A DNA stretch of 10,469 nucleotides from a candidate division TA06 bacterium SM23_40 (GTDB lineage: Bacteria > LJUI01 > SM1-40), in contig LJUI01000085.1 of assembly GCA_001303705.1 (NCBI GenBank), positions 1 through 10,469 of the forward strand, written 5' to 3'. Both the position numbers and the translations under genes were made by a program. Positions 6,420-10,385 of the stretch are shown in pieces. Under the pieces are notes generated by a model. The model was not told the origin of the DNA. It saw only the letters and a list, made by a program, of their open reading frames with translations, and made no database searches. Within the stretch, counting starts at the first letter, position 1. Every line of letters begins with the position of its first letter.

Positions 6420-6551
6420 CCCTCATATTCCGAACTCCCTCATATCCCGGACTACTGGCACCACGCCGCGCTCCGAATCTCGAGCTATCACCGCCGACCC
6501 CGGACTCCACATCTCAGGCTATCACCGCCGACCCCGGGCTCCGCATCTCAG
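6420..6551. repeat. two short tandem duplications upstream of the alkyltransferase-like gene
   Basis: CCCTCATATTCCGAACT (6420-6436) is followed by CCCTCATATCCCGGACT (6437-6453), a 17-bp duplication. A 34-bp unit beginning GCTATCACCGCCGACCCC occurs at 6484-6517 and 6518-6551 with two mismatches, preceded by a partial copy (6469-6483). Together they fill most of the 280-base gap between the membrane ferredoxin stop and the alkyltransferase-like start. I found no convincing promoter or terminator in the gap. Confidence 0.65.
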
Positions 6552-6616
6552 ACTCTCACCAGTCAGACTCTCAGCACCGACTGTACGCTCTAAGCTCCGA
6601 ACCACCGCCTCCCGCT

Positions 6617-7761: not shown

Positions 7762-7950
7762 CGCGGTCTATATGACGCCACGAACAGCCTGCGTGACACA
7801 GCGAACAGTCTGTGTGACACTGCGAATAGTCTATGCGACGCAACGACCGGTCTGCATAACGCGACGACCGGCCTGTGTGACGCAGCAAACAGTCTGCGTA
7901 ACGCGACGACCAGCCTGCGTGACACGACGACCGGCCTGTGTGACGCAGCG
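7762..7950. repeat. 21-bp minisatellite, nine copies
   Basis: Nine consecutive 21-bp units fill this stretch, the first (7762-7782) more diverged. A typical unit is AACAGTCTGCGTAACGCGAC plus G. Differences are mainly C/T and G/A transitions, with length kept exactly. Because 21 is a multiple of three, several frames stay open. In the plus frame it would encode heptads such as NSLRDTA and TGLCDAA. The array lies between the MT1 stop (7964) and its terminator, so a transcribed non-coding role or simple slippage is more likely than translation. Confidence 0.9.
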
Positions 7951-7963
7951 CAGAGATGGTACC

Positions 7964-8647
7964 TCATACCGCCCCAGCCGTCAACTTCTCTGCCTTCACC
8001 ACCAGGACCGCACCGCTGTACAGACGCCTCTCGGTGACGTTCCTGAAACCCGCCTCCCTCACCTCTACTGCGACCCCGCGCCTCAGAAAATCCCTCCGCG
8101 TCCGCAGCTGGAACCGCCACGGCAGCCAGTACCACCACCACAAGCAGAGGTACAAACGTGTCAGTGGACTGCGGGGCCAGTCCACTTCCACGATGGCGAC
8201 CGACCCTCCCTCCCTCAGCACGCGCCGGGCCTCCCGGAGCACAGTCATCCACCTGTCCCGCTCCATGTTATGGAGGGCGTGGGGAATCACAACTATATCG
8301 AACGTACCGGAACGGAACCCGGTATCTGACGCATCCCTCACAAGGAACTCGATGTATGGAAGCCGGCTTTGCCGCCTGGCGATCTCGATCGCCTCAGGCC
8401 ACGTGTCGATGGCATCGACTTTCGAACGACTCCCGACCACTTCTGCAATGACGCGAGTGGTCTCGCCCCTCCCGCAGCACATCTCGAGGATGCGGTCGCC
8501 CGGTTTCATGCCAGTCGCCCAGATCGATGCCAGTCTCCACCTGACATAGTGACGTGCGGGGATATTGCTACACCTCGCCAAGAGACCGAGGTACCGCCAG
8601 TGAATGGGACGCACGATCCGTTCGAACGGGCCTGTGCCCGATGTCAT
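7964..8647 (-). CDS. class I SAM-dependent methyltransferase (MT1)
   Basis: This 227-residue protein has a UbiE/Methyltransf_11-like Rossmann fold. Motif I is ILEMCCGRGET (53-63), the ribose-binding acid is D81 (VDAIDTW), an acidic residue follows at D105, and IPHALHNME (121-129) and VLREGGSVAIVEVD (143-156) form the later core. An aromatic, partly hydrophobic segment LYLCLWWWYWLPW (165-177) may touch membrane or bind a hydrophobic substrate. It is clearly paralogous to MT2 (9687-10385), sharing MCCG, IPHALH, LREARR, WYWLP and EVREAGFR. The substrate is unknown. Two ATGs in a row (8650, 8647) are possible starts. I chose 8647 because it matches the repeated ATGACATCGGG units upstream and has GAAGG 6 nt before it. 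Its first six codons (MTSGTG) belong to the 23-bp array. Confidence 0.82.
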   Translation of the reverse strand: MTSGTGPFERIVRPIHWRYLGLLARCSNIPARHYVRWRLASIWATGMKPGDRILEMCCGRGETTRVIAEVVGSRSKVDAIDTWPEAIEIARRQSRLPYIEFLVRDASDTGFRSGTFDIVVIPHALHNMERDRWMTVLREARRVLREGGSVAIVEVDWPRSPLTRLYLCLWWWYWLPWRFQLRTRRDFLRRGVAVEVREAGFRNVTERRLYSGAVLVVKAEKLTAGAV

Positions 8648-8742
8648 CATGTGCCTTCGCCCGATATCATCGTGTGCCTGTACCCGATGTCATGGTGTAC
8701 CTGTGCCCGATGTCATACAGCGCCTCCCGGTTTCATCGCGTC
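8631..8742 (-). repeat. 23-bp tandem array forming a chain of overlapping micro-ORFs before MT1
   Basis: Four 23-bp units occupy 8631-8722 (core ATGACATCGGGCACAGG on the minus strand), with a shortened fifth at about 8723-8742. Each unit carries an ATG, at 8736, 8716, 8693, 8670 and finally 8647/8650. The resulting short frames are MKPGGAV, MTSGTGTP, MTSGTGTR and MISGEGT. Each ends in a TGA overlapping the next ATG as ATGA; the last TGA overlaps the MT1 ATG pair (ATGATG). The gene's own initiation region has been duplicated in place, giving a leader of linked micro-ORFs. Whether they are translated is unknown. Confidence 0.75.
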
Positions 8743-9001
8743 TCCGCGGCGCGCCGCACCTCTACCGCACTCCGAGGCTCCCCCGGACATCGCAGTCCGA
8801 TCTCGTGTTCTACCACCACGCGCGGTCGAAGCGCCGTGCCCGTGCACTACTCTCATGTCCCGACGCCAAGATCAGTCCCATCAGGCCAAATCGACCCCCA
8901 CGCCGACACGCTCCCACGCCCAAACCACTCCCCGGAAGCGCCGATCATTTGCCAGACTCCCAACTCGAGCTCACTCTCCGATCGCCCGAATCACCCTCCC
9001 T
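8743..9001. other. intergenic region between the lipoprotein and MT1 genes
   Basis: There is no gene here. A perfect 12-bp palindrome GCGGCGCGCCGC (8746-8757) lies just upstream of the micro-ORF leader and could be an operator or part of a hairpin. A degenerate unit of about 17-19 bp occurs at 8982-9000 and 9001-9017 (TCGCTCAAATCACTCCC form), with a further copy at 8917-8932; the last adjacent copy runs into the lipoprotein's final codons. No clear terminator or promoter is seen, so MT1 may be transcribed from the MT2-lipoprotein operon. Confidence 0.5.
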
Positions 9002-9009
9002 CGCTCAAA

Positions 9010-9690
9010 TCACTCCCTCGTACAGCTCGCGTACGAGAAGTATTCGCCGGCGTTGCCTCGCACGACCACGAAATAGATGCCCGCGGGAGACAGGTTTCCC
9101 ACGCTGTCCTTGCCGTCCCACGTAACCGGATTGAGCCCTGCCGGCCACCATGTGTCGACAATCGTGCGCACCAACTGGCCGCCGACGTTGAACACCTCAA
9201 CCTCGAGGCGCATTTCCTGGAATGTCAGGATTGCGATTGTGATGGCTGTCTCGAACGGATTCGGATATGGAAGGGCAACGGTCAGGCCGAGTGTCTGGTT
9301 AACGCAGGCGGCCAACCTGAGCGTATCACACGTGACATCGCCTTCAGACGCCACCTCCAGCGAGTCGCTAGCGAGAAAGACCTCGTCGGTTACCCTCACC
9401 ATCACGACATAGGTCCCGATGTCCACGTTATGAAACTCGTACTCCGCCCCGTCCGTGTGGGTCGAATCTACCGCACTGCCGCCCTGCATCAGCAGGACGG
9501 CGACGCCATCGAGTGGTGACTCGGCACTCCCCAGATTATTGCCCAGTGAGTCGGTCAGCACCTGCTCTATCCAGACCTGTCCCTCGATCGATCTTCCCGC
9601 ACCCGGTCTGGTCGGCTCTCCTTCGTCCTCGCAGCCGGAGAGGAGGGCCACCGCCACGAGCGCGAGCAAAGCGACGAGAACTCGCTTCAT
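9010..9690 (-). CDS. lipoprotein with FlgD/T9SS-like C-terminal domain
   Basis: This is a 226-residue exported protein. Residues 1-19 are a signal peptide ending in the lipobox LLSGC (acylated C20), then an acidic linker. Residues 34-125 look like a carboxypeptidase-regulatory-like beta-sandwich (IEGQVWIEQ, PLDGVAVLL, GTYVVMVRV). Residues 138-212 match the FlgD-like Ig/type 9 sorting C-terminal pattern: LPYPNPFETAITI, VEVFNVGGQLVRTI, WDGKDSVGNLSPAGIYFVVV. A lipobox with a sorting-type tail is unusual, since those tails normally sit on soluble secreted proteins; here it may be only a structural domain. The ATG at 9690 overlaps the MT2 stop (ATGA) and follows GAGGGGG, indicating translational coupling; an upstream in-frame start at 9723 lacks support. 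The specific role is unknown. Confidence 0.8.
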   Translation of the reverse strand: MKRVLVALLALVAVALLSGCEDEGEPTRPGAGRSIEGQVWIEQVLTDSLGNNLGSAESPLDGVAVLLMQGGSAVDSTHTDGAEYEFHNVDIGTYVVMVRVTDEVFLASDSLEVASEGDVTCDTLRLAACVNQTLGLTVALPYPNPFETAITIAILTFQEMRLEVEVFNVGGQLVRTIVDTWWPAGLNPVTWDGKDSVGNLSPAGIYFVVVRGNAGEYFSYASCTRE

Positions 9691-10385
9691 GGTACACCCC
9701 CTCGTATAGATGCCTCCTTGCATCCCTGGACCGCCTGCAGCGCACCACGGAATAGCGAGACCTTCGTGACATCGCGGAAGCCCGCCTCCCTCACCTCATC
9801 GGCGACCCCGTATCGCACCATGTCGCGCCGCGTCGGCGTCTCGAAATTGAACGGAAGCCAGTAGAACCACCAGAGCGCGACAAAGAGACGCATGAGGCGG
9901 CCCGGAGGCCGGTCCAGCTCCAGCACGGCCACTGACCCTCCATCACGGAGAATCCGCCGCGCCTCTCTCAGCACGGCCAGCCGCCCGTCTCTCCACATCT
10001 CATGAAGGGCATGAGGGATCACGACCCTGTCGAACTCTCCGTCACGGAAGTCTGTCTTCGAAGCATCCATCACCATGAAGTCGACATTCGGGTGAGAGTT
10101 CTTCCCGTTCGCCACGCGTATCTGCCCGCCTGAGAGGTCGATGCCCGTAATCTTCGACTTCTCTCCCAGCTTCTCGGCGATCACAAACGTCGCACCGCCC
10201 GTGCCGCAGCACATGTCGAGGATCCTGTCCCCTCGCTTCAGTTCGATCACGTCGACCAGAGCCCTCCGAGCCCTTCCCTGCCCGCCCTGCGGAATAAACC
10301 ACAACTTCGCGAGAAGATCGTAGCGTCGGCTCGCAATGTCGTCATAGTACCGTACATACCAGCTCGGCCGTCCTGTCTGCGACAT
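9687..10385 (-). CDS. class I SAM-dependent methyltransferase (MT2)
   Basis: This 232-residue methyltransferase is paralogous to MT1, about half identical in the core by eye. Motif I is ILDMCCGTGGAT, followed by the acidic ITGIDLSGGQI at strand 2, then VIPHALHEM, LREARRILRDGGSVAVLELD and the hydrophobic aromatic ALWWFYWLP. The last part, YGVADEVREAGFRDVTKVSLF, matches the MT1 C-terminus closely. The fold fits small-molecule or lipid/quinone methylation; the substrate is not determinable. The start is taken at the ATG 10385; a GTG directly before it (10388) is an alternative, and the ribosome site is weak. A two-codon ATG-GCG-TGA frame overlaps the start (TGATG). The stop overlaps the lipoprotein ATG, so the two form an operon. 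Confidence 0.82.
   Translation of the reverse strand: MSQTGRPSWYVRYYDDIASRRYDLLAKLWFIPQGGQGRARRALVDVIELKRGDRILDMCCGTGGATFVIAEKLGEKSKITGIDLSGGQIRVANGKNSHPNVDFMVMDASKTDFRDGEFDRVVIPHALHEMWRDGRLAVLREARRILRDGGSVAVLELDRPPGRLMRLFVALWWFYWLPFNFETPTRRDMVRYGVADEVREAGFRDVTKVSLFRGALQAVQGCKEASIRGGVP

Follow-up and report, generated by a model that had tools for sequence, protein, structure and literature searches.

Does a chain of short, overlapping reading frames that runs into the start of a bacterial gene set the output of that gene, or is it a by-product of tandem duplication? The question is raised by contig LJUI01000085.1 (C33) of the candidate division TA06 bacterium SM23_40 (assembly GCA_001303705.1), a 2.88-Mb genome in 189 contigs that is ~90% complete; the entire contig, 10,469 nucleotides in length, was analyzed and is referred to below as the window. 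On its minus strand, a gene encoding a class I S-adenosylmethionine (SAM)-dependent methyltransferase (Methyltransf_25/UbiE-like; 7964-8650) is preceded and entered by a tandem array whose copies each supply a start codon. A first-pass annotation of the locus read this arrangement as a possible slippage-driven rheostat. Our analysis indicates that the array is probably an ordinary minisatellite, born of slippage, that happens to take in the methyltransferase start region.

Tandem Repeats Finder (TRF) delimits the array at 8630-8716, with a period of 23, 3.8 copies, 82% matches and a score of 125. The repeat unit, ATGACATCGGGCACAGGCACACG, is read on the minus strand in copies that begin at 8716, 8693 and 8670, followed by a coding copy at 8647, and it varies among the copies at nine of its 23 columns. 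Head-to-tail, imperfect copies of a unit within 10-100 bp give the array the structure of a minisatellite, or variable-number tandem repeat (VNTR). The coding copy (ATGACATCGGGCACAGG; 8631-8647, minus strand) comprises the first 17 nt of the methyltransferase from the ATG at 8647 and is identical to the first 17 nt of copy 1 at 8716; together with the TRF array, this bears out the proposal of the first-pass annotation that the gene's own start region has been tandemly duplicated. Four 23-bp units and a degenerate fifth had been described. The four units are clear, while the fifth, ATGAAACCGGGAGGCGCTGT (8717-8736, minus strand), is weaker and 20 bp long: nine of its first 11 bases match the unit, a score equalled by 7% of shuffles (p 0.07), and its kinship to the 23-bp unit, taken alone, is uncertain. 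Eleven bases of this degenerate copy (ATGAAACCGGG; 8726-8736) recur exactly at 8499-8509 within the methyltransferase gene (codons MKPG).

Read across the array, minus-strand ATGs lie at 8736, 8716, 8693, 8670 and 8650, and a chain tracer joins them in this order by four ATGA links. The micro-open reading frames (micro-ORFs) opened at the first four of these positions are 7, 8, 8 and 7 codons long, each TGA sharing its ATGA with the following start, and the final link falls on the methyltransferase start. The chain that had been described is thereby confirmed, with the last overlap at 8650, where the ATGATG of the gene begins. The degenerate copy encodes MKPGGAV (8736-8713), with GGAG 5 nt before its own ATG and GGGAGG 6 nt before the next. 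Copy 1 (8694-8716, minus strand) encodes MTSGTGTP (8716-8690), and the motif upstream of it (GGAGG, 6 nt) is the chain's strongest Shine-Dalgarno match. Copies 2 (8671-8693) and 3 (8648-8670), on the same strand, encode MTSGTGTR (8693-8667) and MISGEGT (8670-8647), with AGGT/AGG 5-6 nt before the ATG of the former and AGG 6 nt before that of the latter; the TGA of copy 3 overlaps the ATG at 8650. No Shine-Dalgarno-like motif is well placed for this ATG. Because the gene opens with ATGATG, the ATGA overlap falls on its first ATG (8650), and the best-spaced motif (AAGG, 6 nt) serves the second (8647). A stop closes the frame within 13 codons 5′ of 8650, which leaves no room for a start much further upstream. 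A continuous repeat protein in another frame was also considered, and is ruled out by the 23-bp period. The sigma-70-like promoter matches that lie inside the array are a consequence of the repeated sequence and therefore give no evidence of a promoter.

To what extent this chain calls for a special explanation depends on what the source genome and chance would supply. Own-genome statistics were drawn from 752 kb (26%) of that genome, on contigs picked at intervals of the numbering, several of which were already known for methyltransferase matches. The four-link chain is unique within the 752 kb scanned. Its length alone is within the reach of chance, as first-order Markov sequences of that size contain ~1.1 such chains, whereas chance falls far short of accounting for the array as a tandem repeat. 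Shine-Dalgarno-like motifs of at least three matching bases precede 39% of all ATGs in the sample. A duplication whose period is 2 mod 3 automatically yields ATGA-linked micro-ORFs if it spans an ATG followed by A, and the earlier argument that every added 23-bp copy gives another coupled micro-ORF while leaving the protein unaltered is arithmetically right. In simulations that added three tandem copies to real Shine-Dalgarno-led ATG starts of this genome, 30% of the duplications whose period was 2 mod 3 carried the full ATGA chain, compared with 10% when every period from 15 to 45 bp was allowed; after seven random substitutions the chain stayed intact in 27% of trials. The ATGA links show no sign of selection, their formation and persistence occurring at the rates expected without it.

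These rates bear directly on the rheostat, in which slippage would add or remove coupled micro-ORFs and so grade methyltransferase translation stepwise, through serial termination and reinitiation, while the protein itself stays the same. Some points speak for such a ladder: the arithmetic is correct, every unit brings its own start codon together with a Shine-Dalgarno-like motif, reinitiation after termination at ATGA overlaps is well established as a mechanism (PMC6728339), and 4-nt gene overlaps are common in the source genome (30 pairs of same-strand neighbours within the sample). It is nonetheless very unlikely, since chains form and last as simulated without selection, and since the last copy's AAGG would permit initiation that bypasses the chain. 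The divergence of the copies to ~82% matches further suggests that the array is not rapidly turning over, and a phase-variable contingency locus would be expected to carry recent, near-identical copies, unlike those found here. We therefore consider it most improbable that the array is a selected contingency device in which the number of reinitiation steps sets methyltransferase output. Were it one, it would represent graded, frame-neutral, repeat-based gene control, unlike classical phase variation, which switches genes on and off by frameshifting.

A second array in the same genome also speaks against the rheostat. At C160:14480-14629 (L131 1495-1644), a 23-bp array of 6.4 copies carries six start codons and 8-codon frames chained by ATGA/GTGA, a chain longer than that of the methyltransferase, yet it leads to no gene. 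It lies antisense between alcohol dehydrogenase-like and phosphoglycerate-mutase-like genes, and the frame at its end has no Pfam match and was left uncalled by the gene caller, so that no supported gene stands there. Its unit resembles that of the methyltransferase array weakly (p ~0.05 given the shared ATGA). A dispersed repeat family was rejected, as a whole-genome search at 0-1 mismatches finds the methyltransferase unit at that array only.

Tandem arrays of unrelated sequence are, moreover, found throughout the intergenic DNA of this genome. Genes in the sample were called by a simple codon-usage script written for the analysis (611 genes, 85% coding, GC 60%); 73% of the called starts have a Shine-Dalgarno match of at least 4, a figure raised by the caller's preference for such starts. 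TRF reports 74 arrays in the sample, of which 44 are intergenic though intergenic DNA makes up 15% of it, a density ~10 times higher between genes (44 in 113 kb) than within them (24 in 640 kb). The periods of coding arrays are mostly multiples of three, while those of intergenic arrays divide 16/14/14 by remainder mod 3, an even split by which periods of 2 mod 3 are not favoured. Arrays of non-triplet period are ~4-5 times denser in this genome (46.5 per Mb) than elsewhere (10 per Mb), the comparison set being twenty 20-kb stretches (400 kb) from 17 other genomes that are unrelated and unmatched in GC. With the automatic origin of the chain, the C160 array and the absence of any sign of selection, this background leaves the slippage-driven rheostat unsupported. 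The richness in intergenic minisatellites of this genome, the only one of its phylum among those searched, may be of more interest than the locus itself. Several other arrays adjoin or run into predicted gene starts in the sample. On contig C116 (L082 3747-3873), an in-frame 42-bp tandem repeat lies over the start of an AMP-binding/acyltransferase gene and offers several alternative in-frame ATGs.

Beyond the source genome, 4 of 385 genomes contain exact 23-bp ATGA arrays. Most of these arrays lie outside gene starts, and in several of the genomes they adjoin the ends of oppositely oriented genes or hairpin-like repeats. Over all 386 genomes, the 23-bp ATGA pattern gives 11 matches in 5 genomes and a backwards-read control 8 matches in 7 genomes; with the control about equally frequent, there is no clear enrichment of such arrays. 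A chain in genome G172 enters a 184-codon frame with a VOC/glyoxalase domain and was rejected as a second gene-start case: the domain occupies the frame only from residue 62, and ~170 nt further on there is a GTG preceded at 7 nt by GGAG. The true start is thus probably downstream, although some plasmid-borne relatives align from residue 6. No orthologue was found in 117 relatives.

Could the micro-ORFs act as a leader of constant copy number, loading ribosomes for the methyltransferase in the manner of a synthetic bicistronic design? The GGAGG 6 nt before copy 1, the AGG-type motif inside each unit and the stop/start overlaps are what such a leader would show, and short ORFs have been discussed as a means to 'deliver' ribosomes to a gene coupled to them (PMC12548453). 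A methyltransferase paralogue two genes upstream (9687-10385, minus strand; 49% identical over the whole alignment), however, has its start in the equivalent place and manages without an array; its own stop overlaps the ATG of the following gene (9690) by ATGA. RNA folding of 8590-8760 was no better than that of shuffles (z -0.15) and gives no hint of a structure requiring opening. A fixed translational leader thus appears unlikely, if less so than a variable one.

The copies might also have been made by misassembled metagenomic reads, given how fragmented and incomplete the genome is. On contig C48 (L066 12060-12125), a 32-bp tandem duplication of 97% identity breaks ftsK into FtsK_4TM and FtsK motor frames; this could be a recent frameshifting duplication (a real allele) or an assembly error, and it looks much more recent than the array at the methyltransferase start. 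Misassembly should yield identical copies, whereas those of the array differ from one another, which makes unique placement of short reads possible. An artefact is accordingly hardly credible.

In the ordinary minisatellite that we favour, slippage or unequal exchange would have duplicated the gene's start region. That the expansion was tolerated is probably explained by the last copy, which retains an ATG and a ribosome-binding motif of its own that would permit direct initiation. Ribosomes entering at the GGAGG before copy 1 could also reach the gene by successive termination and reinitiation, which is plausible by analogy, the upstream stop overlapping the downstream start at each link. Several points weigh against this reading. 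All four links are intact and a Shine-Dalgarno-like motif lies 5-6 nt before most of the ATGs, as a working chain needs; the degenerate copy, at 20 bp, is also 2 mod 3; the locus, known from one genome, is compatible with selection; and the gene calls rest on a simple home-written caller. Since a 2 mod 3 duplication over ATGA yields chains for free, the case stands mainly as a caution that chains of coupled micro-ORFs need conservation or expression data before they are read as regulation.

The nearest described case to the present array is the mycobacterial interspersed repetitive unit (MIRU). MIRUs, too, occur in tandem in variable number, and their units, of 77 and 53 bp for example, likewise have lengths of 2 mod 3. 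Within a MIRU, a small ORF is coupled to the gene that follows through an overlap of -4 nt (PMC12548453), and the same overlap is found here in each of the four ATGA links. MIRUs are dispersed, apparently mobile and present at many loci, whereas the unit described here occupies one locus and is built from the gene's first codons; not being dispersed, it is no MIRU, although it would act like one if translated. With bacterial intergenic minisatellites and VNTRs, of which the source genome holds many unrelated examples, the array shares head-to-tail 10-100 bp units, imperfect copies and a mostly intergenic position, but it enters coding sequence and its copies hold start codons. In bacteria and archaea, translation is coupled across ATGA overlaps to an extent that differs from gene to gene, and a Shine-Dalgarno motif often helps (PMC6728339; PMC12548453). 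The array shares with these systems, and with synthetic bicistronic designs, the ATGA stop-start overlap and the presence, within the upstream frame, of a Shine-Dalgarno-like motif; known examples involve real genes or a single designed leader, whereas here the putative coupling runs serially through several frames of 7-8 codons. The TAACTGA heptamers of marine Beggiatoaceae, with a suspected post-transcriptional role (PMC4679880), are likewise direct repeats immediately 5′ of start codons, but consist of one conserved heptamer at 169 loci as opposed to a locus-specific 23-bp unit.

As to the methyltransferase itself, no NCBIfam model scored above its cut-off, and contig scans and whole-genome searches found no orthologous locus; the closest homologues in those searches are distant methyltransferases of ~25-35% identity. 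The window holds two further intergenic arrays, at 7773-7949 and 6477-6560, with respective periods of 21/63 and 34 bp; one of them lies just 3′ of the methyltransferase stop.
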